A stretch of DNA of 64,000 bases from Sulfurimonadaceae bacterium. Lineage in GTDB: Bacteria; Campylobacterota; Campylobacteria; Campylobacterales; Sulfurimonadaceae. The position numbers and the translations under genes were made by a program. The stretch is from NCBI GenBank assembly GCA_016744905.1, contig JADGDM010000005.1:1-64000 (forward strand), in the 5' to 3' direction. Position 1 is the stretch's first letter. Every line of letters starts with the position of its first letter. The notes under the pieces are model-generated. The model searched no databases and was not told the DNA's origin. It saw only the letters and a list, made by a program, of their open reading frames with translations. Below, piece by piece: positions 12,813 through 38,698 of the stretch.

Positions 12813-13240
12813 GTGCTGAAGCCTGTCCCATATCCATGGAACCACGTATAAACTCTACCGTACTACGTGTCAATTCACTTTTTTATCTTATCGCACTTTG
12901 GAGTGCTTATTTTTTCGATCAACCCTATATATTGATGCCTCTTATTATTATTTTCATCTCAAAAAACTTCAATCTAAAGTTTGATTGTTTTTTAGATACC
13001 CTGAGTAAAAAAATAACCAATATATTGGATCTTAAAAAAAATATGATAGATCCTGCACCAAAAAAATTGGCAAATGCCATGGGATTAGCAATGAGTTCTG
13101 TGGTTTTTTTACTTGCTTTTTTTGAAAGTGAACTATTGATTTTTCCGTTTGTACTTCTTAGTATTGCTTTTCTTTTAGAAGCTGTATTGGACTACTGTAT
13201 AGGTTGTAAAATTTACGCTTTATGGATTAAAATTAGATGA
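12809..13240 (+). CDS. DUF4395 family membrane protein
   Basis: A 143-aa small integral membrane protein with about four hydrophobic helices. The pattern matches DUF4395: an N-terminal C-P with R-I-N-S-T-V-L-R-V-N, a middle D-P-A-P-K-K-L-A-N-A-M-G, and a C-terminal C-I-G-C near residue 130. The function of the family is unknown; some members accompany thioredoxin-fold or rhodanese proteins, which are not adjacent here. It is coupled by 4-base overlaps to the phosphodiesterase before it and the HAD phosphatase after it. Confidence 0.75.
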   Translation: MSAEACPISMEPRINSTVLRVNSLFYLIALWSAYFFDQPYILMPLIIIFISKNFNLKFDCFLDTLSKKITNILDLKKNMIDPAPKKLANAMGLAMSSVVFLLAFFESELLIFPFVLLSIAFLLEAVLDYCIGCKIYALWIKIR

Positions 13241-14070
13241 TGAAAAACAGTTATATAACAGATCTTGACCACACTTTTTTACGTTCTGACTTGAGTATTA
13301 GTGCCTTTACCAAGGGTATTTGGAACAGCTACGCTTCACATTCAATAATGAGTGTCGCCACCGCACGAACCTTTAAAAAAACCGAGCAATTTATGCAAGG
13401 CATTGAGGTAAATGCTCCAATGATTTTACTCGATGGCGCGCTGGTTGCGACTATGGATAAAAAGATAATTGATACCAAGTTTATTCCTAAATTTGTCGCT
13501 GATGAGATTATTGATGAGGGAGGTAAAATGGGAATTTATCCTTTTGTCCTCTCTTTAGGTGAAGGTGAACTTCATGAAGACTTTCTCTACAGCGATATCC
13601 TTAACCCGCATCAAAAAACAGTACTTGCGCGCTACGCTAGTGATGATAACCTTCAAGTGCGTCACAATATTCGTGGTGAAGAGAAAAATTTTAAAATTGT
13701 TTACATGGGTGAAGAGGAACTGCTTCGTGATTTAGATGCCCGTCTTCGTGAGCTTTTTGGCGATGCCTTTGCCTACATCTTAGCGCCTGAAGCCTATGTC
13801 GGATGTTACTTTTTAACTGTTTTACATAAAGATGCAGACAAGGCACATGGGATTAAAAGTGTGAGTGAATATAGTGGCTTTGATTTAGAAAAACTGACTG
13901 TCTTTGGAGACAATTTTAATGACGTGGGTATGTTTGAACTGGCACGCCACTCTTTAGCCGTATCCAACGCCCAAGACGGTGTTAAAAAACTCGCTTCTAT
14001 GGTTTCCGAATTTAGCAATGATGATGACGCAGTAGCGCGCTACTTAGAGAAACTTCAATATGCAAAATAG
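13237..14070 (+). CDS. HAD-superfamily (Cof-like) phosphatase
   Basis: A 277-aa cytoplasmic hydrolase. Motif I is ITDLDHTFL near residue 8, with H in place of the usual G of D-x-D-G-T; motif IV is FGDNFNDVGM near residue 228, where acidic residues hold Mg2+. The large inserted cap between them is the C2B type found in Cof-like sugar-phosphate phosphatases. It overlaps both neighbours and leads into a sugar permease and a hexose mutarotase, so a sugar phosphate substrate is likely. It is not a good match for MupP, the MurNAc-6-phosphate phosphatase, which has a small helical cap. Confidence 0.82.
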   Translation: MMKNSYITDLDHTFLRSDLSISAFTKGIWNSYASHSIMSVATARTFKKTEQFMQGIEVNAPMILLDGALVATMDKKIIDTKFIPKFVADEIIDEGGKMGIYPFVLSLGEGELHEDFLYSDILNPHQKTVLARYASDDNLQVRHNIRGEEKNFKIVYMGEEELLRDLDARLRELFGDAFAYILAPEAYVGCYFLTVLHKDADKAHGIKSVSEYSGFDLEKLTVFGDNFNDVGMFELARHSLAVSNAQDGVKKLASMVSEFSNDDDAVARYLEKLQYAK

Positions 14071-15334
14071 CAAAACACTTTTTCCGATGGTGATTATCGG
14101 ACTGCTCTTTTTTATCTTTGGTTTTGTGACATGGCTTAATGGCTCATTGATTCCTTTTTTAAAAATAATCTGCGCACTCAGTGACAGTCAAGCACTTTTA
14201 GTGACCTTCGCTTTTTATATCGCATACACGGTGATGGCGCTACCGATGGCGTACGTTTTAGAACGTACGGGCTATCGCAACGGTATGGCATTGGGATTGG
14301 GTGTGATGGTGGTGGGTAGTTTGCTTTTTATCCCTGCTGCACTGAGCGCAGAGTTTATGCTCTTTTTAGTAGCACTGTTTACACTAGGAACGGGTTTAAC
14401 CATCTTGCAAACTGCTTCAAATCCTTATGTGGTTTTTCTCGGTCCCATTGAGAGTGCGGCACAACGTATCAGTATTATGGGTCTTATTAACAAAGGCGCA
14501 GGGGTCTTGGTTCCTCTACTTTTTACGGCTTTAATATTCTCAGATATGGGCAGTAAAGATGTGAGCGCGCTGAATCAAAGTGAGATAGATGTTTTGGCAC
14601 AGAGATTAATTATTCCCTATCTTATTATGGCGGGAGTACTCAGCGCACTGATCGCTCTGGTAAAGTTTTCAAATATTCCTGAGATAGAGTTTGCACAGAG
14701 TGAAAGTGTTGAAGAAAAAGGAAGTATTTTTGCTTTCCCTCAAGTCGTTCTTGGCGCGCTGGCACTTTTCTTCTACGTAGGTATCGAAGTGATTGCTGGG
14801 GATACTATAGGTCTTTATGGACAAAGTTTGGGTGTTGACAATATTACGGCACTCACCTCGTATACCATGATATTTATGGTTGTTGGTTATATCGTTGGGG
14901 TCAGTATGATTCCAAAATACCTGTCTCAAGAAAAAGCACTGATTGGTTCAGCACTTTTTGGCATACTTTTTTTACTGGGTGTCTCTTTTGGCTCAACCAC
15001 ATCCACCTCTATCGCCGCTATTTTATGGGGCTGGATGGGCATTCCTCTGCTTCCTAACTCTTTGAGCTTTGTGGCACTTTTAGGCTTAGCCAATGCACTG
15101 GTCTGGCCTAGTATCTGGCCCTTGGCCTTAGAAGGTCTGGGTAAGTTTACCGCTCAAGGCAGCGCGCTGCTTATCATGGCAATAGCGGGTGGCGCCATAC
15201 TACCACTCATCTTTGGTGAGTTAGCGCAAAGAAGTGGTGATATGCAGGGTTCTTATTTGATAGGAATTCTGTGTTATCTCGCTATTTTGGCGTATGGGAT
15301 TAAAGGACATAAAATGCGTTCATGGAGTAAGTAG
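14060..15334 (+). CDS. gluP: FucP/GluP-type sugar:H+ symporter (MFS)
   Basis: A 424-aa inner-membrane permease with twelve predicted helices. FFIFGFVTWLNGSLIPFLK at the first helix, the L-Q-T-A-S-N-P-Y segment near residue 118 and G-L-I-N-K-G-A-G near 137 match the glucose/galactose and fucose permease branch, including Helicobacter GluP. It overlaps the HAD phosphatase by 11 bases and the mutarotase by one base. Together they form a plausible hexose uptake and interconversion unit. Sugar specificity cannot be read from the sequence. Confidence 0.87.
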   Translation: MQNSKTLFPMVIIGLLFFIFGFVTWLNGSLIPFLKIICALSDSQALLVTFAFYIAYTVMALPMAYVLERTGYRNGMALGLGVMVVGSLLFIPAALSAEFMLFLVALFTLGTGLTILQTASNPYVVFLGPIESAAQRISIMGLINKGAGVLVPLLFTALIFSDMGSKDVSALNQSEIDVLAQRLIIPYLIMAGVLSALIALVKFSNIPEIEFAQSESVEEKGSIFAFPQVVLGALALFFYVGIEVIAGDTIGLYGQSLGVDNITALTSYTMIFMVVGYIVGVSMIPKYLSQEKALIGSALFGILFLLGVSFGSTTSTSIAAILWGWMGIPLLPNSLSFVALLGLANALVWPSIWPLALEGLGKFTAQGSALLIMAIAGGAILPLIFGELAQRSGDMQGSYLIGILCYLAILAYGIKGHKMRSWSK

Positions 15335-16188
15335 TGGTAGTTTTAAAAAAATTAGAAAATGGTTTTGATATTTTAGAAATTGATAATGAATTTGCGAGCG
15401 CAAAAATAGCGCTTCAAGGTGGACATATTTATCATTATGAACGCGCTGATGATAAGCAGGTTCTTTGGGTAAGTCCGAGCAGTGACCTTGAGCTTGGTAA
15501 AGCTATTAGAGGTGGAATTCCACTGTGCTGGCCTTGGTTTGGGATGAATAAAGAAGATGAAAACCTACCCCAACATGGCTTTGTGCGAACGAGCCTATTT
15601 CATTTAGAAAGCTCACAAAAACTAGAAGATGGAAGCACTCAGGTTATTTTACTTTTATGTGACTCAAAAGAGAGTAGAAGTGTATGGAATCATCGCTTTG
15701 AATTGCGTGTAGAATTCATCATCTCTGATAGCTTAGAGATAAAATTAACCACTAAAAACCTTGATGATCAACCTTTTACTATTACACAAGCCTTACACAC
15801 CTATTTTGAGGTTTCAAATATTAATGATGTGAAAATTACAGGATTAGAAGAGAAACCTTATTTTGATGCTTTAACAACAAAAGGGTGTGTTCAAAAAGAT
15901 GCAATAATCTTTGAGCAAGAAGTTGATAGAGTGTATCAAGAGGTGCAAGATGCGGTATTTTTAAAGGATGCCACACGGAGCATCCAAATTAATAACCAAG
16001 GTTCATCCTCAGTTGTGGTCTGGAATCCCTGGATTGAAAAAACAAAACGTATGAGTGCGATGAATGACGATGCGTATAAAACCATGGTCTGTATAGAGAG
16101 TGCAAATGCCTTAGATGATGAAAGAAGTATACAAGCACAAGAGAATCACACAATAACGGCTATAATTACACCATTAAAAGAGGATTAA
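15334..16188 (+). CDS. D-hexose-6-phosphate mutarotase (YeaD-like aldose epimerase)
   Basis: A 284-aa galactose-mutarotase-fold enzyme that interconverts the alpha and beta anomers of glucose-6-phosphate-like sugars. Visible marks are LQGGHIYHYE, the RGGIPLCWPWFG block near residue 65, LPQHGFVRTS near 85, and late VVWNPWIEKTK. It begins at a GTG that shares one base with the stop of the permease gene, which indicates coupling. It ends one base before an HTH-like gene. Confidence 0.85.
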   Translation: MVVLKKLENGFDILEIDNEFASAKIALQGGHIYHYERADDKQVLWVSPSSDLELGKAIRGGIPLCWPWFGMNKEDENLPQHGFVRTSLFHLESSQKLEDGSTQVILLLCDSKESRSVWNHRFELRVEFIISDSLEIKLTTKNLDDQPFTITQALHTYFEVSNINDVKITGLEEKPYFDALTTKGCVQKDAIIFEQEVDRVYQEVQDAVFLKDATRSIQINNQGSSSVVVWNPWIEKTKRMSAMNDDAYKTMVCIESANALDDERSIQAQENHTITAIITPLKED

Positions 16189-16715: not shown

Positions 16716-16735
16716 TTCAAAAAAGAGAAATGACG

Positions 16736-17197
16736 ATGATAAAAAGACTTTTTGCCACAAAAAACCAGAAATTAGTACGTAGATGGAAAAAAGAGCATGG
16801 AAATATGGTTACCTTAGCACACAAAATTATTTCAGCCTATAAACATCATAATTACAAAGCAGTAAGAAAAGAACTCAAACGTTTGAATCATGTTGCGATG
16901 GAGCATTTGATGACAGAAGACTTAGAATTCTTCGAATTATTGCAAAACAGTGCCAGAGTAGATAACAATACAAAAAAAATGGTAGATGAATTTAATCTTT
17001 CATTTCGTGATACTAAAGCAGTATTACGTGGATTTTTTGCGACGTATACACACTCAAATGCAATTTATGATGAAGAATTTTTTACTACCTTTGGTGCCAT
17101 TGTTGAAGCATTGGGCAATAGAATTGCTTATGAAGAGAAAAATCTCTATGTGAAACTTGATGAGAGCAGAAGAGTCGTTAATCAGAAGATACGTTAA
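16736..17197 (+). CDS. Hemerythrin-like (HHE) protein
   Basis: A 153-aa soluble four-helix protein. The metal-ligand pattern is visible as KEHGNMV near residue 18, LNHVAMEHLMTEDLEF near residue 48 and a later Y-T-H-S plus Y-E-E-K-N-L-Y, consistent with a di-iron hemerythrin domain, although spacing differs from textbook bacteriohemerythrins. Campylobacterota have many such proteins, used for O2 binding or protection of iron-sulfur enzymes. An upstream ATG at 16730 is only 2 bases from the AGAG, so 16736 fits better. Its TAA lies in a TTAA shared with the convergent cyclase stop. Confidence 0.72.
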   Translation: MIKRLFATKNQKLVRRWKKEHGNMVTLAHKIISAYKHHNYKAVRKELKRLNHVAMEHLMTEDLEFFELLQNSARVDNNTKKMVDEFNLSFRDTKAVLRGFFATYTHSNAIYDEEFFTTFGAIVEALGNRIAYEEKNLYVKLDESRRVVNQKIR

Positions 17198-18921
17198 GCG
17201 TTAAAACTCTCTAACCTATCTCTTCCCAACTCTTTGGCCCTATACAGTGCTTTGTCTGCTTCTTGTAGAAGTACTTCAAGGTCTGCGTTATTGCTACTAA
17301 GACCAATACTCACATTTACCTTTAGCTCCTCACTTCCTTTAATAGAAATCTCACGTGTACTAGAGAGGACTCTTTGTGCAATAGCTATGGCGCTCTCTTT
17401 ATCTGTATGAGGCAAAAATAGTACAAACTCCTCTCCCCCGTAACGTGCAAATATATCATCATTACGTAGCATGGTTTGACACATTTTAGAGAAACTAATC
17501 AGTACTTTATCTCCGACATCATGCCCATAGGTATCATTGATATTTTTGAAAAAATCAAGGTCTAACATTAGAAGAGTAAAAGAGTTGTTATTGGCGTCGC
17601 TTAGGTATTCATTCACAGTGCTGTAGAAGTACCGTCTGTTATAAATTTTGGTGAGTGGATCAGTTTGAGAGAGTGTTATGAGCCGTTCATTGGCTTGAGA
17701 GAGATTATTATTAAAACGTTCTTGTTCTTCAATAACATTGCTCTTTTTTTGATCTAAAACTTTAAGTGTTTGATGTTCATTTTTTAGTTGATTGTAAGAG
17801 TATGCCAGACCGATTGAGAGCAACAGCATCTCTATCGAAGAGCCTATCTGTGGAGCAAAATCAATATACTCATTTGATGGGATGATTCCAGCATTACCTA
17901 AGATGCTAATGCTGGAACCTATAACCACTGAAGTCCATGCAACGGCGTAAAATAAAAAGGTGATGGTTCTTTGATAAAGGATGAAATAGAACAAAATTAA
18001 TACAAAAGCCAGTACCGCCAACAATGCTAAAAAGGAAGCAATTTTGATTGCAGTGGCATAACCAAATATAAAAGGTGTCAGACTCACTATAAGAGTGCTG
18101 TAAAAAAAGCCATTTAGAAGTTGATATAATCTTAATGAATAACGTTTAAGTTGAAGAAAATGAATGGAAAACTTTATTGAAAATCCGGCTGAAAGCATAA
18201 TCGCAATAGGAACGAAATAATAATTAATAGACGGAGTATTGGGCCAAAGCAGTTCAAAGGCTGCACCACTAAGTCCTATGGAAAATCCGAAAAATACCAG
18301 ATGAAAAAGTACGTAGTAAAAATAATCCTCACGGCGAACGATGAGAAAGATGAGAAAATTGTACGCCAACATAATGATAACTGCACCAAAGTAGAGGGAG
18401 AGAATTCTCTCACTATGGTGAATTTTCTTTAAATAGCTGCGCTCTTCCTCAATATGTAGGCCTATATTGGTATTGCTGTCTGTTTTTACTTTGATAAAAA
18501 AATGACGTGTTTGCGCTGGGGTAAGGCTAAAAATGTAAGAGGGTTTTGTACTGACTCCGTCTTGATCAAAGGGGCGTAAATCTCCAAGTTCTTTTTTGAG
18601 AATAAGTGTCCCATGTATTAATTCAAATATATCAACATAATCAAGAAGGGGGTATTCAAACTCTAAAAGATATCTTTGTTCTAAAGGATGTGAACTGTTG
18701 ACATCAACTTTAAGCCAAAATATATCGCTGATATATCCAAACCGTGTATGTTCAGTCTGTAGGGGTTGAAAAAGTCCTTGAGCATCTTTTGCTAAGATCT
18801 CTTTCTGGCTGTAAGATCTATCTTCAAGTTGTATATAACTGATATTTTGAGAAAGCAGTGTAGCATTGGCAAACAGGGTGCTTACTAAAAATGTAGTAAA
18901 CAGTAGATATTTAAACATCAT
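17194..18921 (-). CDS. 7TMR-DISM diguanylate cyclase
   Basis: A 575-aa inner-membrane sensor. Order: signal peptide (about 1-20), periplasmic 7TMR-DISMED2 domain (about 25-150, a jelly-roll thought to bind carbohydrates), seven helices (about 170-385), coiled coil, then GGDEF (about 410-570) with an intact YGGEEFVLF near 497 and the DPLTKIYNRRYF entry. It should make c-di-GMP. It starts 18 bases after the stop of the lytic transglycosylase and appears to be the last gene of the peptidoglycan-recycling operon, which suggests that wall fragments may be the ligand. That link is inference. Confidence 0.9.
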   Translation of the reverse strand: MMFKYLLFTTFLVSTLFANATLLSQNISYIQLEDRSYSQKEILAKDAQGLFQPLQTEHTRFGYISDIFWLKVDVNSSHPLEQRYLLEFEYPLLDYVDIFELIHGTLILKKELGDLRPFDQDGVSTKPSYIFSLTPAQTRHFFIKVKTDSNTNIGLHIEEERSYLKKIHHSERILSLYFGAVIIMLAYNFLIFLIVRREDYFYYVLFHLVFFGFSIGLSGAAFELLWPNTPSINYYFVPIAIMLSAGFSIKFSIHFLQLKRYSLRLYQLLNGFFYSTLIVSLTPFIFGYATAIKIASFLALLAVLAFVLILFYFILYQRTITFLFYAVAWTSVVIGSSISILGNAGIIPSNEYIDFAPQIGSSIEMLLLSIGLAYSYNQLKNEHQTLKVLDQKKSNVIEEQERFNNNLSQANERLITLSQTDPLTKIYNRRYFYSTVNEYLSDANNNSFTLLMLDLDFFKNINDTYGHDVGDKVLISFSKMCQTMLRNDDIFARYGGEEFVLFLPHTDKESAIAIAQRVLSSTREISIKGSEELKVNVSIGLSSNNADLEVLLQEADKALYRAKELGRDRLESFNA

Positions 18922-18939
18922 TGGCTCTTTATTGGTAGT

Positions 18940-19914
18940 TTATTGACTCAGTCCTAGATGGGCATCGTAAGCGAGTCTCATAACGCCTATGGCGTAATTA
19001 GATGAGTTATTATACCGCATAATTTTTTTGGCATATTCACGCAAGTAGGCCAACTCTGGTTTATCACAGCTAAAACAGTCATAGGTTTTGTTATGACGTT
19101 TACTTTTTGCGTAGACAAATGAGGCGGAGTCATTATCAAACTCATAATCATACCACTGTGCTTCAATGACGTCCATGTCAGGAATTTTATCCCAATCCAT
19201 TAACTCCGTAAAGTTTGCTTTTTTATGTAAAAAATAGCTGGCACTGACAATGGCATCTTCCATTTTTGTGAGATCAGCGTACTTGTTTTTATATCCTTTG
19301 GCATAGACAAATGAGTTGGGCATAAACTGTGGAATACCTACCGCTCCAGCGTAAGAGCTTGGAAGATTACACGATTCTGGTTTGAGGTCTTGTTTGTAAC
19401 AGTGGGTGATGATAGAGGTCATATTGGTTTTTGCCATCTTGATGAGCCATTTTTCACGGTTGGTATTGGGTTTGGTGCGTACGAGAAGCGTATTAAAAAC
19501 GATAAAAGCATCATGCGTAGGATTGATACGTCCGAGATTGGTCTCTTTAATCAATATCCCTGCGATGATTTCACGATTGACACCATAGGTCTCTTCAGCG
19601 TAGTCATAGACCTCTTTGTACTCTTTAAGATGGGTAACAATACGGGGTACATATTTTACTAAGGTATTGTTTGCTTTTTTCTCATTTTTTTTGTGATGTT
19701 TAATTTTACTGGGTTGAAGATATTTAAAACTGACTTCATCGAATTTTTGTGTTTTAAAGTAAGAGAGTAGAAATTGGTTGGCGTACTGAACACTGACCCC
19801 TTTTTTCACAACCTTTTTACAGATCTCTGTATAGTCAGGGTTTTGAAAGGTACAGTTGTCATGTTTGGCAAAAAGTAGGCCAGTAAGGCCGAGTATTAAT
19901 AGTAATTTTTTCAT
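18940..19914 (-). CDS. mltB: MltB-like lytic murein transglycosylase
   Basis: A 324-aa exported enzyme that cleaves MurNAc-GlcNAc bonds, leaving 1,6-anhydro-MurNAc ends. A signal peptide covers residues 1-16. The catalytic glutamate is in ILIKETNLGR near residue 123, and the SLT_2 family block SYAGAVGIPQFMPNSF is near 185. No lipobox is seen, so it is probably a soluble periplasmic enzyme. Its start lies 2 bases after the murU stop. It supplies the substrate for the enzymes encoded upstream. Confidence 0.9.
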   Translation of the reverse strand: MKKLLLILGLTGLLFAKHDNCTFQNPDYTEICKKVVKKGVSVQYANQFLLSYFKTQKFDEVSFKYLQPSKIKHHKKNEKKANNTLVKYVPRIVTHLKEYKEVYDYAEETYGVNREIIAGILIKETNLGRINPTHDAFIVFNTLLVRTKPNTNREKWLIKMAKTNMTSIITHCYKQDLKPESCNLPSSYAGAVGIPQFMPNSFVYAKGYKNKYADLTKMEDAIVSASYFLHKKANFTELMDWDKIPDMDVIEAQWYDYEFDNDSASFVYAKSKRHNKTYDCFSCDKPELAYLREYAKKIMRYNNSSNYAIGVMRLAYDAHLGLSQ

Positions 19915-19916
19915 TA

Positions 19917-20582
19917 TTATTTGTGTGCTTTCATATTTATTTTATTTAATCGCTCAGGTGTTCCAATATCTTCCCAGATACCACTGTGTAGCGTGCCAGA
20001 GATTTTATTTTGATGCATCGCTTCACGTAAAAGTGGGGCTAAGGCACTACGTCCATAAGGGAGGTCTTTAAACATCTTGGGATTATAGTAGGCGATGCCT
20101 GAATAAGTCTTTGAGTCATCCGTGTTATCTAAAACTCTGCCTTTTTTTAAAGTAAAGTCACCCTTTGTGTGTTGTGGAGGATTGGGCACTAAGATAAGGT
20201 GTGCATCATCCTCGCCTAAATCAAAACCAGTATCAAAAGCATAATCAGACCAAACATCTCCATTGACCAGTAAAAATGCTGCATCACCTAAGAGTGGAAG
20301 GGCTTTTATGATACCACCTGCACTCTCTAACGCACCTTCTTCTCTCTCATCAGAGTAGGTGAGTTTGATACCCCACTGTTCGCCATTACCCAGCGCGCTC
20401 AGTATTTTATGACCCAGATGGGCAATGTTGATGATAATCTCTTCAAATCCTGCTTGTGCGAGTTTTTCGATATGCCAAACAATCAGTGGTTTTGCATGAA
20501 CTTCAAGTAGAGGCTTGGGTGTGACATTCGTTAAGGGTCGCATACGTTCACCCCGGCCAGCAGCCAATATCATCGCTTTCAT
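19917..20582 (-). CDS. murU: N-acetylmuramate-1-phosphate uridylyltransferase
   Basis: A 221-aa cytoplasmic nucleotidyltransferase that joins MurNAc-1-phosphate and UTP to give UDP-MurNAc, bypassing de novo synthesis and MurA. MILAAGRGERMRPLT is the sugar-nucleotidyltransferase loop, followed by TPKPLLEV and the VNGDVW metal site. Length and order next to amgK match MurU of pseudomonads. ATG 20582 is preferred because it overlaps the amgK stop as ATGA; a GTG two codons earlier is also open. Confidence 0.88.
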   Translation of the reverse strand: MKAMILAAGRGERMRPLTNVTPKPLLEVHAKPLIVWHIEKLAQAGFEEIIINIAHLGHKILSALGNGEQWGIKLTYSDEREEGALESAGGIIKALPLLGDAAFLLVNGDVWSDYAFDTGFDLGEDDAHLILVPNPPQHTKGDFTLKKGRVLDNTDDSKTYSGIAYYNPKMFKDLPYGRSALAPLLREAMHQNKISGTLHSGIWEDIGTPERLNKINMKAHK

Positions 20583-21600
20583 TGACACTCTTTTAGAAGT
20601 TTGACCAAGGCTTTTGTCTCATCATAGCGCGCTGCGGTTTCTAGCACGTATTTGAGTGTCAGTGGGATATCTTTTAAGTATCCCTCTTTTCCATCACGAA
20701 GATAGAGTCTGGAAAAAATACCTAAGACCTTGATATGTCGTTGAAGTCCCATAAAGTCAAACCATTTTATAAAGGTTTTATCATCTGTTTTCAAACCCAA
20801 GATGTCACGAAATTCTAAAACCAATTTCTCTATCTCGTGCCGTTCAAATTCGATATAACAATCTTTTAAAAGTGAAACCAAATCATAAGTAATCGCACCA
20901 CACATTGCATCTTGATAATCAATAACGGCGACTTCATTTTTTGCATCCAGCATAATATTTCGAGAGTGAAAATCACGGTGGACAAAAACATTTTGCGGCT
21001 GTTCTAAAACGAGGTCAGATATCGATTCTAGCGCGCTGGATAGGGTCTTTTTTTGCGTATCTGTTAGTGCGATATTTAAGTGCTGTTTTAAGTACCACTC
21101 TTGCATTAAATCCATCTCAAAATGAAGAAAGGCTTTGTCATATAAAGGAAGCCCTTGTGTGTCAGCGCGCTGCATGTTAACGATGCAATTAAGGGCTTGT
21201 TTGTAAAGTGTTATAAAGTTGTTAGTATTTAAAACATTTAGATAATGGGTATTTCCAAAGTCCTCTATGATGAGATATCCAAGTTCTAAATCTTGTTCTA
21301 AAATATGAGGAACTTGTACCCTCACATCAAGCAGTCTTTGTGTGACATCGATGAAAGGACGAAGAGACTCTTTTTCTAATGAAGAGTCCATGAGAAGAAC
21401 GGTTTCCTTATCTTTTGTAAGACGGTAATATTTTCTAAAACTTGCATCGGCTGAAGCGATGGTAAGTTGAAAATCTTTATAAGGGGTATGCTTTAGCCAA
21501 TTGTTGATTTTATCCATAGATAGCTCCAATGATTGAATCTTTTTTTGCTCCAGTAATAGAGCTGAGATTGATGACTCTGTTGTGTACTCTTTGGCGCGCC
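20392..21600. repeat. Cluster of GCGCGC palindromes in the murU-amgK-anmK region
   Basis: AGCGCGCT occurs at 20392, 20626, 21030 and 21164, and GGCGCGCC at 21593. All lie inside coding sequence. They are part of a window-wide set described in the findings. Confidence 0.8.
20579..21517 (-). CDS. amgK: Anomeric MurNAc/GlcNAc kinase
   Basis: A 312-aa aminoglycoside-phosphotransferase-fold kinase that phosphorylates C1 of MurNAc. The catalytic loop is FVHRDFHSRNIML near residue 180 and the metal-binding VIDYQDA follows. The reading frame is open upstream to 21634, but ATG 21517 has GGAG seven bases ahead and overlaps anmK by 8 bases, so the shorter form is chosen. Pairing with murU is the known AmgK-MurU salvage module. 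Confidence 0.88.
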   Translation of the reverse strand: MDKINNWLKHTPYKDFQLTIASADASFRKYYRLTKDKETVLLMDSSLEKESLRPFIDVTQRLLDVRVQVPHILEQDLELGYLIIEDFGNTHYLNVLNTNNFITLYKQALNCIVNMQRADTQGLPLYDKAFLHFEMDLMQEWYLKQHLNIALTDTQKKTLSSALESISDLVLEQPQNVFVHRDFHSRNIMLDAKNEVAVIDYQDAMCGAITYDLVSLLKDCYIEFERHEIEKLVLEFRDILGLKTDDKTFIKWFDFMGLQRHIKVLGIFSRLYLRDGKEGYLKDIPLTLKYVLETAARYDETKALVKLLKECQ

Positions 21601-22592
21601 AACCAAGCAAAAGCGAGGGCTTCCATATAGTCACTGCTCACACCATAGTCATCACTGGGTTTAATGGTACATCCCTTGAGATATTTACTTAATGATACGA
21701 TGAGGGCTAAGTTTTTTGCGCCCCCTCCACATAAAATAAGATGTTTTATTTTTTTGTCTTCTAGTGCTTCCGCGATACTAAGGACACTGAGTTCAAGGAG
21801 TGTTGCTTGAACATCAACAGGACGCAGAGCAGAAAACTCTTGAAGTTTTTCTTCCAACCAGTGGCCATTAAAAAGTTCTCTCCCTGTACTTTTTGGAGGA
21901 GTTTGATTAAAGTAAGATTCGCTAAGCAGTGTGTTTAATAGGGGTTGATGAATATTACCACTACGTGCCCACTCCCCTTTTTTATCAAAAGGTTTGTTAA
22001 GATTTTTATCAATCCAGTAGTCTAGAAGTACATTGGCTGGTCCAACATCAAAACCTGTTGGTAAGCCTAAAAATGTGATGTTGGCGATACCTCCAAGGTT
22101 AAGAACGGCAACATCATCGCCAAGGTAGTTAAAGATAGATTGATGAAAGGCGGGAGCGAAGGGTGCGCCTTGACCACCATGGGCGACATCTAAACGTCTA
22201 AAATCAGCAACGACTTTAATGCCAGTCTGGGCATATACAATATTGGCGTCACCGAGTTGCATCGTAAAAGGAGTGTCACCGAAGGGTTGATGCCACAGTG
22301 TTTGTCCATGTAGTCCAATGGCCGTAATATTTTCAGATAGGATCTCTTCTCTTTGCAGTAGTGCATTAATGGCCTTGGCAAAGAGATGTCCGAGTTGATG
22401 ATCAAGTTTACCAACGGCTTCTAGACTGCTTGGCTTTTCAATCATCTCTAAAATTTTAGCTTTTAGTAATGGGTCGAAGGGATATTCTAGTGCGCTGATA
22501 AAGGCAGGCTTATGTGCACCTATTTCGCACAGAACGACATCTACGCCATCAAGGCTGGTTCCCGACATTACACCGATATATTGTTCACTCAT
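21510..22592 (-). CDS. anmK: Anhydro-N-acetylmuramic acid kinase
   Basis: A 360-aa cytoplasmic kinase that opens 1,6-anhydro-MurNAc and yields MurNAc-6-phosphate. The N-terminal GVMSGTSLDGVDVVL is the family's ATP-binding signature; GLHGQTLWHQP, the LNLGGIANIT block and the GGGAKN motif near residue 293 are also present. Full length. It overlaps the symporter by 8 bases. The following step in the pathway needs MupP, which is not encoded in this window. Confidence 0.93.
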   Translation of the reverse strand: MSEQYIGVMSGTSLDGVDVVLCEIGAHKPAFISALEYPFDPLLKAKILEMIEKPSSLEAVGKLDHQLGHLFAKAINALLQREEILSENITAIGLHGQTLWHQPFGDTPFTMQLGDANIVYAQTGIKVVADFRRLDVAHGGQGAPFAPAFHQSIFNYLGDDVAVLNLGGIANITFLGLPTGFDVGPANVLLDYWIDKNLNKPFDKKGEWARSGNIHQPLLNTLLSESYFNQTPPKSTGRELFNGHWLEEKLQEFSALRPVDVQATLLELSVLSIAEALEDKKIKHLILCGGGAKNLALIVSLSKYLKGCTIKPSDDYGVSSDYMEALAFAWLARQRVHNRVINLSSITGAKKDSIIGAIYG

Positions 22593-24054
22593 GAGATTTT
22601 CCTAACTGCATAATAATAAAAGAGACAAAGGTTCCAATGACGATTTGCCATGAAAACCCTAGGGAGATACCAAAGATATAAGGCTGAAGAGACAAGACGG
22701 TAACAAATCCACCCAATAGTGCCCATGGTACGGTGTTGGCGTTACCACGTTTAGTAAAGATGGCTGAAAAGAAGACACCCAAAAGTCCGGTGTAGGCAAA
22801 AGCCATCACGCCAAGCGCAAAACTCACCAACGAAAGGTCACTGTAATGTTGCCAATAATAACTTATCATCGCCATAAGGGAGAGAATCAAAGCAAAGAAG
22901 AGAACGGCTTGGCGAGAAGCTTTGATGTAATGTGTCTCATCCATTTGAACGCGCTTGGACTTCCAAGGACGGTAGATATCTTCAACGGCTACAGAAGCCA
23001 TCGCCCCTAAAACAGAGTTGGTACTTGAAAGCGCTGCGGCTATAGCGCCAACAGTCACTAATCCACGCAGACCATCAGGCATCTGTGTGAGTATATAGTG
23101 CATAAAAATAGTAATTTTTTCACCTTGAAAACTCTGTGTGACATCGGCTTGATTGTAAAAAAGATAGAGTAGGGCACCGATAGATAAAAAAAGTAAAACT
23201 ACAGGAATCGTCAAAAGAATAGAGACAATAAGTGAGCGCGCTGCATCTTTAGAATTTTTACACGAGAGTACGCGCTGCGTCATATCTTGATCGAGTCCAA
23301 AGGCGGCGATGTTGAGTAAGAGCCAGCCCGTTAGTAGACCGATGATACTAAATTTTCCATCCAGTGAGGTGTCAAAAACTCTCAGTTTATTGTGCTCTTG
23401 CAGTGTCTCAATAATGTTGATATCACCTAAAGAATTATAGAGATAAAAAAAGACGATAAGTGCGGCACCGATGTAGGTGATGGCTTGAATGATGTCTCCC
23501 CAAATAACAGACTTGACTCCGCCAAAGTAAGCATACGCCAGCGCGCCAAGTATTAAGATGACGATAGAGACGGTGACATGGAGAAAGGTGACATCTAAAA
23601 AAAGTATCATAGAGATAGCCAGCGCGCCGATATAGAGTCTTGCCCCACTGGCAAGAACACGGCCAAGAAGAAACATAATTCCTGCTTGTCGCTTAGCGCG
23701 CTCGCCGTAACGTGATTCTAAAAGTTCATAAACAGTAATAGCGCGCAGGGCATAAAATTTAGGAATTAGAATATAGGCAACAAAAAGTACCCCTAACAGT
23801 CCTGAGAAGTAAAATCCGATAAAAGTGAAGTCATGGGCATATGAAAACTCTGGCGCGCCCAAGAAGGTGGCGGCGGATTGTGAAGTAGCAAGAACAGAGA
23901 TCGCAACGGCAAACATGGGCATGGAGTTTGCACTTACAAAAAACTCCCGCGAAGAGGAGATCTTTGTCCGTCCTAGAGCGTAAGAGCTAAGCGCTAAGGT
24001 GAGAAAATAGGCGGAAAATATAGCCCAGTCGAGCGGTGAAAAAGCACTTTCCAT
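22585..24054 (-). CDS. SSS-family sodium:solute symporter, likely for wall sugars
   Basis: A 489-aa inner-membrane transporter with thirteen to fourteen helices of the SSS family; FFVSANSMPMFAVAISVLAT and the later A-A-A-L-S-S-T-N-S-V are typical sodium-site regions. It begins on the last base of nagZ and overlaps anmK by 8 bases. The placement suggests uptake of anhydro-MurNAc or GlcNAc-anhydro-MurNAc in place of AmpG. Specificity is inference from operon context. The gene carries at least six GCGCGC palindromes. Confidence 0.87.
   Translation of the reverse strand: MESAFSPLDWAIFSAYFLTLALSSYALGRTKISSSREFFVSANSMPMFAVAISVLATSQSAATFLGAPEFSYAHDFTFIGFYFSGLLGVLFVAYILIPKFYALRAITVYELLESRYGERAKRQAGIMFLLGRVLASGARLYIGALAISMILFLDVTFLHVTVSIVILILGALAYAYFGGVKSVIWGDIIQAITYIGAALIVFFYLYNSLGDINIIETLQEHNKLRVFDTSLDGKFSIIGLLTGWLLLNIAAFGLDQDMTQRVLSCKNSKDAARSLIVSILLTIPVVLLFLSIGALLYLFYNQADVTQSFQGEKITIFMHYILTQMPDGLRGLVTVGAIAAALSSTNSVLGAMASVAVEDIYRPWKSKRVQMDETHYIKASRQAVLFFALILSLMAMISYYWQHYSDLSLVSFALGVMAFAYTGLLGVFFSAIFTKRGNANTVPWALLGGFVTVLSLQPYIFGISLGFSWQIVIGTFVSFIIMQLGKSHE
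23235..23859. repeat. Cluster of GCGCGC palindromes in the symporter gene
   Basis: AGCGCGCT at 23235 and 23695, AGCGCGCC at 23540 and 23621, AGCGCGCA near 23744, and GGCGCGCC at 23852: six sites in about 620 bases of an AT-rich genome. Confidence 0.8.
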
Positions 24055-25148
24055 TATTTTCTTTCTCTTTCTCTATATTGATGTAATCGCTCAATTCTTC
24101 TGTTTGACTCGATGATTCTCTTTTTATCAATTTTTCCATCATGAACTCCTTTTAAAATAGTTTCTACAATCTCACCCGTGTTATTGGTGCTTAATTGATT
24201 GCCAAAAAGTAAGATATCTACACCCGCATTGATGGCCAAGGTTACTGTCTGAGAGAGCGTATAATGCGCAGATATCGCTTTCATCTGTAAGTCATCACTG
24301 ATAATGACACCCTGATACCCCATCTGATGACGAAGTAAAATATTATTAACTTTATGTGATAAAGTAGCAGGAAACGTTCCATCTAGTTGGTCGTTAAAAA
24401 CATGTGCGGTCATAATCATCTGCACATCATCACTGTTGATGAGGTTTTGGTAGGGTTCTAATTCTGCGTTAGACCATGTTTTACTGATATCAACAAAACC
24501 TTTATGGGAGTCTCCTAGCGAAGAACCATGACCAGGAAAGTGTTTTAAAACAGAGAGTACTTTCTCTTTTTTCAGTGCGTCCATAAATATTTTGGCGTAG
24601 GCAGTAACGTCTTCACTTTTAGCGCCATAAGAACGATCAAGTCCTACTATGACTTTATTGTCTGGATTGCGCGCTAAGTCCACCACCGGAGCAAAATCAC
24701 AGTTGATGCCATTTTCTGAAATCATCTTAGCTTGGTTGGCATAGATCTGTGCTGCTTGTTTGTAGTCAAGACTAGAGACATCAAAGGCAGAAGGAATTTT
24801 CAAAAAGCCATACTTCGGCTTCAAGCGCGCTACCTTTCCACCCTCTTGATCGATAGAGATAATAAGTGGTTTTTTAGCGTATGACTTTAGTTGGGTACTC
24901 AGCGCGCTGAGTTGTGAAGGGGAGCTTATATTTTTTGTTCTGTTACGATCATGATAAAACCTATCAAATAAAATAACGCCACCCAAGTCATAGTTTTGGA
25001 TATCTTGAACAATTAAAGAGTCTCTGCTTAGATTTGAATCTTCAAACCCCACCACCAACATCCGACCAATCATCTTTTTGAGTGCATCATCATTGGTTTG
25101 AAGGGTATGAAAATTTAAAAATAGTAGTAGAAGTAGGGAGAGTTTCAC
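24054..25148 (-). CDS. nagZ: Beta-N-acetylglucosaminidase, GH3 NagZ type, apparently exported
   Basis: A 364-aa GH3 hydrolase that removes GlcNAc from muropeptides. The His/Asp loop KHFPGHGSSLGDSH is near residue 201 and the nucleophile lies in IISDDLQM near 284; ISIDQEGG is also present. The start is a GTG at 25148 with AAAGGA seven bases ahead; an upstream ATG adds 30 poor-looking residues. The N-terminus is then a basic residue plus L-rich core (MKLSLLLLLFLNF), which looks like a signal peptide. Most NagZ enzymes of Gram-negatives are cytoplasmic, so export is unusual. First gene of the recycling operon. Confidence 0.88.
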   Translation of the reverse strand: MKLSLLLLLFLNFHTLQTNDDALKKMIGRMLVVGFEDSNLSRDSLIVQDIQNYDLGGVILFDRFYHDRNRTKNISSPSQLSALSTQLKSYAKKPLIISIDQEGGKVARLKPKYGFLKIPSAFDVSSLDYKQAAQIYANQAKMISENGINCDFAPVVDLARNPDNKVIVGLDRSYGAKSEDVTAYAKIFMDALKKEKVLSVLKHFPGHGSSLGDSHKGFVDISKTWSNAELEPYQNLINSDDVQMIMTAHVFNDQLDGTFPATLSHKVNNILLRHQMGYQGVIISDDLQMKAISAHYTLSQTVTLAINAGVDILLFGNQLSTNNTGEIVETILKGVHDGKIDKKRIIESNRRIERLHQYRERERK

Positions 25149-25652: not shown

Positions 25653-26284
25653 ATGAAAAATATAATATTTATGTTACTGCTTACAGTACTTGTTTTTAGT
25701 GGATGTGAGAAGCCTGGGGAGAGTGAAGAGAGACGACCATCAACGGACGCAAGTATAGTGATTGATTCAATGGAAGAGACAAGCACAATGGTGAGATGGT
25801 CTGGTATACATATTACCAAGGACAGTTCTCCACAGGGGCAGTATTGGTTTGGAGTGGACAGCTCGCGAACAAGTATTATTGATGGAGTACGAACCGTAGG
25901 CAGTCGGGGGGGGGTACGACAGGATTTTACCAAGTCAGCGATTACCAAAGACAAAACATTGTTGACATTGATAATATTGAGCCAAGAGATAGTGCAGTGG
26001 TATTTGATGTTGAACAGGTAGAGTCAGTACAGTGTGACTTTGATAGTATGTCAGGCAATTCAGCAATAGTGCAATGTGTAATATACAGCAAAAACAATGA
26101 ACTGATAACACAATTTGAAACCAGCCTCGGGGTAAACAGTGGAGAAGTTGTAGAAGATGTATTCTTCCCAATTTTAAGAGTTACTACTCCAGAACTAGAA
26201 GAGTGGGATGATATTATGGACACAGTGTTCGATTCAACAAAACTTTTTGATGGACGCAGTTTCATTGAAGAAGAGGAACTTTAA
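25653..26284 (+). pseudogene. Lipoprotein gene split by a G9 tract (possibly phase-variable)
   Basis: The frame from ATG 25653 has a lipoprotein signal ending V-F-S-G-C near residue 18, then runs to a G9 tract at 25906-25914. As given, it continues in a poor-looking frame to a stop at 26021. From the tract on, another frame is open: GGTTGFYQVSDYQRQNIVDI, then DNIEP, continuing to 26284 and ending E-E-E-E-L. Ten or seven Gs would fuse the two into about 210 residues. AGAGAGAAG precedes the start. No family is recognised. Slipped-strand switching or a sequencing error in the run could explain it. Confidence 0.65.
25906..25914 (+). repeat. Homopolymeric G9 tract inside a lipoprotein gene
   Basis: Nine consecutive Gs in the coding part of the lipoprotein gene, at the exact point where the reading frame is lost. 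Runs of this kind are the usual contingency switches in Campylobacterota. Confidence 0.85.
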
Positions 26285-27166: not shown

Positions 27167-28282
27167 ATGCAGCAGGTAAAAAAATGGATTTGGCAACAAA
27201 AAGAGTATCCTAATTTTTATTATGACAAGGAAAAATTTGAAAGCTTATTTCTGGATATAAGATATGAGCAGGGTCTTCTTGATGGGATATATCGAAGTAT
27301 TAAGGGTGATGATTTACTGCAAACACAAGTTGAGATTTTGACAGAAGATGCACTGAACACCTCGGCCATAGAAGGAGTTTCTCTTAGTCGTGATAGTGTT
27401 CGATCTTCTATAATGAATAGATTTGGTTTGGAGTATGAGTTAAAAGACAGTTCAAATCGTTTAACTGATGGTGTTATAAATATATTATTGGATGCGACAA
27501 ATCATTATGAGAAAGAGATTACTTTAGAACGAATATTTGGCTGGCAACATGCTCTGTTTCCTTATGGAATTAGTAGTCATCAACATATTAATATTGCAAG
27601 CTTTAGAGGGGATGGAGATATGCAGATCGTTTCAGGAGCGATAGGCAAAGAGAAGGTTCATTACATTGCACCCAAGCGAAAAGACCTCGAAGCGCAGATG
27701 ATACAATTTTTAAAATGGATTAATGATGATTCTGATCTTAGCATAGTGAAAGCAGCTGTAGCACATTTGTGGTTTGTGATTATTCATCCTCTTGATGATG
27801 GTAATGGGAGAATTGCTCGTGCCCTTAGTGATCTGGTTTTAGCAAGAGATGCTTCTCAGACTCTAAAACTTTATTCGGTATCTCAAAGTATTAGAAACAA
27901 TAGAAAGGCTTATTATGATGTTTTGCAGGAGACTACTTCTGGAAATTTGGATATTACAGCTTGGATTAGTTGGTTTTTGCAAATGATGCTGGAGGCGTTA
28001 AAAGAAGCGCAGGTGAGCATACATTATATTACAGAAAAGATGCATTTTTGGGATAGACATAGAGAAACAGTTTTGAATGAGAAACAGATTAAAGTCTTGA
28101 ATAAACTTTTAGACATGGGGAAAGGAAACTTTCAAGGAGGATTGAATACAAGAAAGTATGCAGGGATGACAAAAAGTAGTAAGCCTACTGCTAGCCGTGA
28201 CATAAAAGATTTGCTTGAGAAAGGGTGTCTAAAGCAAATCCTAGGAACAGCTGGTCGTAGTAGTAGTTATGAACTGAACTGA
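27167..28282 (+). CDS. Fic-domain protein (predicted AMPylase)
   Basis: A 371-aa cytoplasmic enzyme of the Fic family, which usually moves AMP from ATP to a protein hydroxyl. The N-terminus resembles DUF4172, the common partner of Fic. The active-site loop is HPLDDGNGRIAR near residue 206, matching H-P-F-x-x-G-N-G-R with F replaced by L. The self-inhibitory motif S-A-I-E-G is near residue 65 (class II arrangement). The C-terminus, LNTRKYAGMTKSSKPTASRD, looks like a winged helix. GGAG precedes the ATG. It sits in an accessory patch with a toxin-antitoxin pair; a toxin-like role is possible. Confidence 0.88.
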   Translation: MQQVKKWIWQQKEYPNFYYDKEKFESLFLDIRYEQGLLDGIYRSIKGDDLLQTQVEILTEDALNTSAIEGVSLSRDSVRSSIMNRFGLEYELKDSSNRLTDGVINILLDATNHYEKEITLERIFGWQHALFPYGISSHQHINIASFRGDGDMQIVSGAIGKEKVHYIAPKRKDLEAQMIQFLKWINDDSDLSIVKAAVAHLWFVIIHPLDDGNGRIARALSDLVLARDASQTLKLYSVSQSIRNNRKAYYDVLQETTSGNLDITAWISWFLQMMLEALKEAQVSIHYITEKMHFWDRHRETVLNEKQIKVLNKLLDMGKGNFQGGLNTRKYAGMTKSSKPTASRDIKDLLEKGCLKQILGTAGRSSSYELN

Positions 28283-38689: not shown

Positions 38690-38698
38690 GGGGGGGGG
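38690..38698 (+). repeat. Second homopolymeric G9 tract
   Basis: Nine consecutive Gs, preceded by an A8-G-T run, lie 35 bases after the stop of the large lipoprotein gene. I find no open frame across it on either strand long enough to support. The surrounding 245-base gap (38656-38900) holds no other gene. Confidence 0.8.

Follow-up and report, generated by a model that had tools for sequence, protein, structure and literature searches.

Gene context points to an AmpG-independent, symporter-based route of peptidoglycan salvage in the Sulfurimonadaceae

An operon for the recycling of cell-wall sugars was analysed in a Sulfurimonadaceae bacterium (GCA_016744905.1; 3.0 Mb in 122 contigs), within a window of 64,000 nt that comprises the whole stretch of DNA under study (contig JADGDM010000005.1, positions 1 to 64,000). 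The operon probably (at roughly 70%, in our estimate) encodes an anabolic salvage of peptidoglycan that does without the permease AmpG, in which wall fragments would be dismantled in the periplasm and a symporter of the SSS family would import the resulting anhydro-N-acetylmuramic acid (anhMurNAc). The gene content and order of the operon, its conservation among relatives and the absence of both AmpG and MurQ can be read directly from the genomes, and the conserved unit is one of six genes, of which the diguanylate cyclase that ends the operon in the window is not part.

Seven minus-strand genes had been reported at 17194-25148 in a preliminary description of the window, and all are present, with their named domains confirmed by Pfam. 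The first, nagZ (24054-25148), encodes an exported-type β-N-acetylglucosaminidase of family GH3 (Pfam, 228.8 bits) and is followed by the gene for the SSS-family symporter (22585-24054; Pfam SSF, 106 bits), the proposed importer of anhMurNAc or N-acetylmuramic acid (MurNAc), and by anmK (21510-22592), which encodes the anhMurNAc kinase (PF03702, 440 bits) and is found in a single genomic copy. Next come amgK (20579-21517), for a 1-kinase of MurNAc and N-acetylglucosamine (GlcNAc) with an APH domain (96 bits) and a match of 253 bits to the AmgK model NF045759, under its cut-off of 550, and murU (19917-20582), for a MurNAc-1-phosphate uridylyltransferase with an NTP_transferase domain, which adjoins amgK family-wide. 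An MltB-like lytic transglycosylase with a signal peptide (18940-19914; SLT_2, 110.8 bits; TIGR02282 MltB, 70.8 bits, under cut-off) precedes the cyclase (17194-18921), a lineage-specific addition with 7TMR-DISMED2, 7TM and GGDEF domains (Pfam, 80.7, 121.3 and 153.7 bits, respectively). The spacing given for these genes, from an 18-base gap to 8-base overlaps, matches the measured coordinates: the symporter gene and anmK overlap by 8 bases, anmK and amgK by 8 and amgK and murU by 4, while gaps of 2 and 18 bases separate murU from mltB and mltB from the cyclase gene. Promoter and terminator scans yielded nothing above shuffled expectation, and the operon boundaries therefore rest on gene spacing.

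Loci of relatives were gathered by symporter similarity and by a survey of 200 family genomes for AnmK, with flanks of up to 19 kb around AnmK taken from 60 genomes. The loci include named members of Sulfurimonas and Sulfuricurvum together with other Sulfurimonadaceae, and the source genome is the sole representative of its genus in the comparison collection. The order nagZ, symporter, anmK, amgK, murU and mltB recurs throughout these loci; 47 of the 71 have the whole six-gene core, and contig ends truncate many of the others. Both AnmK and the symporter are encoded in 100 of the 200 genomes, AnmK only in 3, the symporter only in 4 and neither in 93, so that the two co-occur in 100 of the 107 genomes with either (Fisher p ~8e-48, uncorrected for shared ancestry). 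Amidase_2 proteins, in turn, are present in 99 of the 103 AnmK-positive genomes. The operon is also repeatedly interrupted in relatives by unrelated genes, judged by reading their translations, among them a DNA cytosine methyltransferase with its likely restriction partner (L101:9546-11428), RhuM/Fic-like genes (L003:5094-6083 and L100:9962-10792) and a chemoreceptor (L008:9541-11496).

The lack of AmpG proposed for this organism holds across its whole genome, in which the model TIGR00901 has no match, and none of the 200 family genomes carries a protein at the model cut-off (three have weak matches). MurQ is over its cut-off (302) in none of the 200 genomes, the best match in the source genome reaching 28 bits; sub-cut-off matches of about this score (~28 bits) lie mostly in proteins of ~600 amino acids, the size of GlmS.

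NagZ and its partner amidase are apparently exported. The NagZ of the window, read from a GTG start at 25148, has a hydrophobic N-terminus, carries the motifs KHFPGHG, GDSH and SDDL and scores 182 bits against the NagZ-type model PRK05337 (cut-off 207). A strong N-terminal hydrophobic stretch is seen in 59 of 63 NagZ proteins, and orthologues with clear signal peptides were recognized by eye. Furthermore, 41 of 65 NagZ open reading frames (a few loci being counted twice) are fused to an AmpD-like Amidase_2 domain and bear an N-terminal signal, and Pfam places GH3 and Amidase_2 together in a 564-residue protein of one relative. The window NagZ is unfused. A single Amidase_2 protein is encoded in its genome, at G000:C100:21809-22234 (locus L120); it shares 57% identity with the fused domain and has a signal-like N-terminus. 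A quick tree of the symporters suggests that the fusion of NagZ and amidase was gained or lost several times. Most likely, GlcNAc and peptide are both removed in the periplasm, leaving the anhMurNAc monosaccharide as the only muramic product in need of a permease. If wall fragments are indeed cut to single sugars at this location, the import of a disaccharide is not needed, and AmpG would therefore be dispensable.

The symporter route is well supported by gene context, from which we infer the substrate. Among proteins of solved structure, the symporter has its best relative in the SiaT-type 5nv9, and SiaT-type symporters carry another acidic amino sugar, sialic acid. Over 83 symporter homologues, Ser60, Thr63 and Asp187 are invariant, with Asp187 as the likely sodium site, and so are Arg132 and Arg139. 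Alphaproteobacterial symporters with 45% identity occur in three settings: next to a MurQ-like SIS protein and a D-lactate dehydrogenase-type oxidase (FAD-linked), next to a BadF-type (NagK-like) kinase, and next to AnmK, where a GntR/UTRA regulator and a TonB-dependent receptor are also encoded. D-lactate is the by-product of MurQ. This distant context lends independent support to a substrate of the muramic acid type.

A further step has to be accommodated in the pathway, because AnmK makes MurNAc-6-phosphate while AmgK acts on MurNAc, and a MurNAc-6-phosphate phosphatase is hence required. In Pseudomonas, the phosphatase MupP fills this place between AnmK and AmgK (PMC5371407). Of five HAD-IA proteins from the source genome that were scored against the MupP model, none reaches its cut-off of 359, the best attaining 106 bits; the latter was rejected as a MupP since its own model identifies it as a phosphoglycolate phosphatase, and the next HAD-IA candidate (L123) was rejected because it occurs in 193 of 200 genomes irrespective of AnmK. 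The best candidate for this activity is a Cof-type HAD-IIB phosphatase (13237-14070, plus strand; PF08282, 133 bits; TIGR01484, 64.5 bits, cut-off 41.8), the first gene of a convergent operon at 13237-16188. Two plus-strand genes follow it, one for an MFS permease of the NagP family (14060-15334; NF046060 NagP, 505.5 bits, cut-off 625; TIGR01272 gluP, 233.9 bits, cut-off 202.55) and one for an aldose 1-epimerase (15334-16188; PF01263, 154.8 bits), which we read as a putative GlcNAc importer and a putative amino-sugar mutarotase that would exchange anomers before AmgK. In the window these three genes face the recycling operon tail to tail. Among 49 loci with enough flank, at least one of them lies downstream of the operon in 27 and at least two in 23, always in convergent orientation, and in the loci of several relatives the epimerase gene directly abuts mltB, tail to tail. 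The earlier proposal of a self-contained salvage operon in which the symporter replaces AmpG thus stands as regards the conserved core, the co-occurrence of the symporter with AnmK and the lack of AmpG, but the MurNAc-6-phosphate phosphatase has to be sought outside the seven genes.

The steps of AnmK, AmgK and MurU are established biochemistry of their families, and the remainder of the proposed route can be arranged around them. GlcNAc-anhMurNAc-peptides would be released by lytic transglycosylases, the MltB-like protein of the operon among them. In the periplasm these fragments would meet NagZ and an AmpD-like amidase, both of them exported, and be split into GlcNAc, anhMurNAc and peptide; the amidase is encoded by its own gene in the source genome and as part of a NagZ fusion in most relatives. 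The symporter would then take in anhMurNAc with sodium, and the NagP-like permease would take in GlcNAc. In the cytoplasm, anhMurNAc would be converted by AnmK to MurNAc-6-phosphate, stripped of its phosphate, for which the Cof-type protein is the preferred candidate, and presented to AmgK after anomer exchange by the epimerase; AmgK, which may also act on GlcNAc, would form the 1-phosphate, and MurU would complete the path to UDP-MurNAc.

Several observations weigh against this reading. Export is read from N-terminal hydrophobicity and inspection, and a clear cleavage site is lacking in the NagZ of the window. The residue aligned with Arg135 of SiaT, which we take to be the one that binds the sugar carboxylate, is Ala135 here, with the invariant Arg132 and Arg139 lying one turn away, so that the sugar site would be related to that of SiaT and not identical to it. 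The Cof-type phosphatase candidate is linked to the operon in part of the family only. Lastly, three loci (L014, L113 and L117) keep the symporter beside an apparently cytosolic, signal-less NagZ. The quick symporter tree groups these loci as a single clade, in which the symporter may carry a disaccharide or work differently. In L113 and L117 the HAD phosphatase is present, but the flanks covered show no NagP; for this one clade, a NagP unseen beside a cytosolic NagZ fits the release of GlcNAc inside the cell.

A signal-less NagZ next to the same symporter is what would be expected if the symporter moved the GlcNAc-anhMurNAc disaccharide, or muropeptides, as a direct functional equivalent of AmpG, while NagZ worked in the cytoplasm. 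As an account of the family this is unlikely, since the NagZ of the window and almost all others compared have a hydrophobic N-terminus, and the amidase partner is apparently exported or fused to NagZ. The breadth of substrates among SSS proteins and the sialic acid symporter that is the closest solved relative would equally be compatible with the import of some other amino or acidic sugar, such as sialic acid or GlcNAc, by a protein that merely accompanies the recycling genes. We consider this very improbable in view of the near-perfect co-occurrence with AnmK, the position of the gene inside the operon, the muramic acid genes that adjoin the alphaproteobacterial homologues and the availability of a NagP-like protein for GlcNAc.

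To our knowledge, many bacteria possess recycling enzymes without AmpG, and an import route for wall debris is established in only a minority of them. If the uptake of anhMurNAc monosaccharide after periplasmic dismantling is correct, a sodium symporter coupled to an exported NagZ-amidase enzyme would provide another means of import alongside AmpG and YejBEF-YepA, and the dismantling step would sit in the periplasm of a Gram-negative cell. Its elements have counterparts in several described systems. The AnmK-MupP-AmgK-MurU route of Pseudomonas (PMC5371407) shares with the present system AnmK, the adjacency of AmgK and MurU, the lack of MurQ and the product UDP-MurNAc, and the fosfomycin target would be bypassed likewise; here, in contrast, no MupP is found over cut-off (a Cof-type HAD candidate lies nearby), NagZ is apparently exported and AmpG is missing. 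In the NagZ/AmiE salvage of Bacillus subtilis (PMC5061867), NagZ and an amidase act on the outer side of the membrane and the cell takes up single sugars, much as is proposed here, but the present cells are Gram-negative, the sugars would be anhydro-sugars from a lytic transglycosylase, and NagZ and amidase are fused in most relatives. B. subtilis furthermore relies on a MurP phosphotransferase system and MurQ, as opposed to the symporter with AmgK and MurU proposed here, where MurQ is absent and phosphotransferase systems were not searched for. The MurNAc transporter Tf_MurT of Tannerella forsythia has been described as a member of the sodium symporter superfamily (PMC5790795), and its MurT-MurK-MurQ operon (PMC5790795, PMC7670621) likewise unites a transporter with MurNAc enzymes, a likeness that is one of description only; T. 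forsythia, unlike the organisms studied here, uses MurK and MurQ, has AmpG and is without AnmK. Recycling without AmpG is also known from Agrobacterium, where YejBEF-YepA (PMC9790009) is an ABC transporter for muropeptides and not, as proposed here, a sodium symporter for monosaccharides. Searches of a literature lying mostly outside subscription journals returned no publication on an anhMurNAc symporter, on an exported NagZ-amidase fusion or on cell-wall recycling in Sulfurimonas. The symporter, the Cof-type phosphatase and the NagP-like permease provide testable genes, and a lower sensitivity to fosfomycin is predicted for organisms that use the symporter route.

The last gene of the operon had been interpreted as a built-in output in cyclic di-GMP (c-di-GMP). 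Its protein does have the DISMED2 domain and the intact GGEEF motif attributed to it, as confirmed by Pfam and motif inspection, together with an RxxD I-site (RNDD) and a DPLT motif, and it is likely co-transcribed with the recycling genes. The link to recycling, however, is unsupported, and it fails by a yardstick of the preliminary description itself, linkage of the cyclase in relatives: no relative among the 200 genomes has the cyclase at the recycling operon, and the expected conservation of gene order with the cyclase was checked at 44 mltB loci with enough flank, in none of which (0/44) it lies behind mltB. The closest homologues (44% identity, G048 and G054) adjoin rml-type nucleotide-sugar genes and not anmK. 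A same-strand GGDEF gene of any kind follows mltB in one of the 44 loci (L101, a different protein of 241 amino acids), which corresponds to the chance rate because the source genome holds ~70 GGDEF candidates, one per ~40 genes. Other GGDEF or GGDEF-EAL genes were noted in or beside the operon of a few relatives (L065:14434-15648; L068:16161-17324, oriented; L066:12686-14191; L115:10261-11694, oriented); their proteins are unlike the window cyclase outside the GGDEF domain, and their placement is probably due to chance in GGDEF-rich genomes. In the window, the cyclase gene, a hemerythrin-like gene (16730-17197, plus strand), which is convergent with the cyclase gene and overlaps its end by 4 bases, and a gene for a protein of 122 amino acids fill the junction at which relatives often have mltB and the epimerase gene end to end. 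The DISM cyclase hence looks like a local add-on, inserted in this lineage at the junction of two convergent operons.

A double role of the operon, in which it would salvage wall sugars and also signal their presence, DISMED2 responding to bound muropeptides or amino sugars with a rise in c-di-GMP, would accord with the position of the cyclase gene, which follows mltB on the same strand after 18 bases that hold no terminator-like site, with the intact GGEEF and I-site, and with the prediction that DISMED domains bind carbohydrates (PMC6107284). We regard such a circuit as quite improbable, given that the cyclase is found at the operon in no relative and has its closest homologues near nucleotide-sugar genes, that a GGDEF gene behind mltB is about as frequent as chance predicts, and that a DISMED2 domain taken from RgsP, a protein linked to the cell wall, remained largely soluble in the presence of peptidoglycan (PMC6107284). 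The 7TMR-DISM proteins RetS, NicD and RgsP (PMC6107284) resemble the window cyclase in joining DISMED2 and 7TM to a cytoplasmic signalling module; RgsP differs in its degenerate GGDEF and active EAL domains, and the window cyclase has no conserved link to cell-wall genes. It is similarly doubtful that, in this genus-level lineage, the inserted cyclase reads the periplasmic pool of GlcNAc, anhMurNAc or muropeptides produced by the exported NagZ and amidase, in which case wall turnover would set c-di-GMP in a cell whose recycling depends on a symporter in place of AmpG.

Some features of the window and genome stand apart from the recycling genes. The palindrome AGCGCGCT, with the core GCGCGC, is hugely over-represented in the source genome only. 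The core occurs 51 times in the window against 2.3 expected and, in 60 kb from other contigs, 59 times (2.2 expected), and genome-wide AGCGCGCT is found 1152 times, compared with 2 for the reversed control, whereas its observed/expected ratio is ~1 in ~85 loci of relatives and alphaproteobacteria. Its copies have a median spacing of 534 bp and fall in every reading frame, and the palindrome is reminiscent of the HIP1 repeat of cyanobacteria or of an uptake sequence. A lipoprotein gene at 25653-26284 (plus strand; MKNIIFMLLLTVLVFSGCEK...) is split into two overlapping frames, and a tract of nine G at 25906-25914, upstream of the frame overlap, may reflect a phase-variation-like arrangement or an assembly error; a second G9 tract lies at 38690-38698. 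A Fic/DOC protein with a DUF4172 domain is encoded at 27167-28282 (plus strand).

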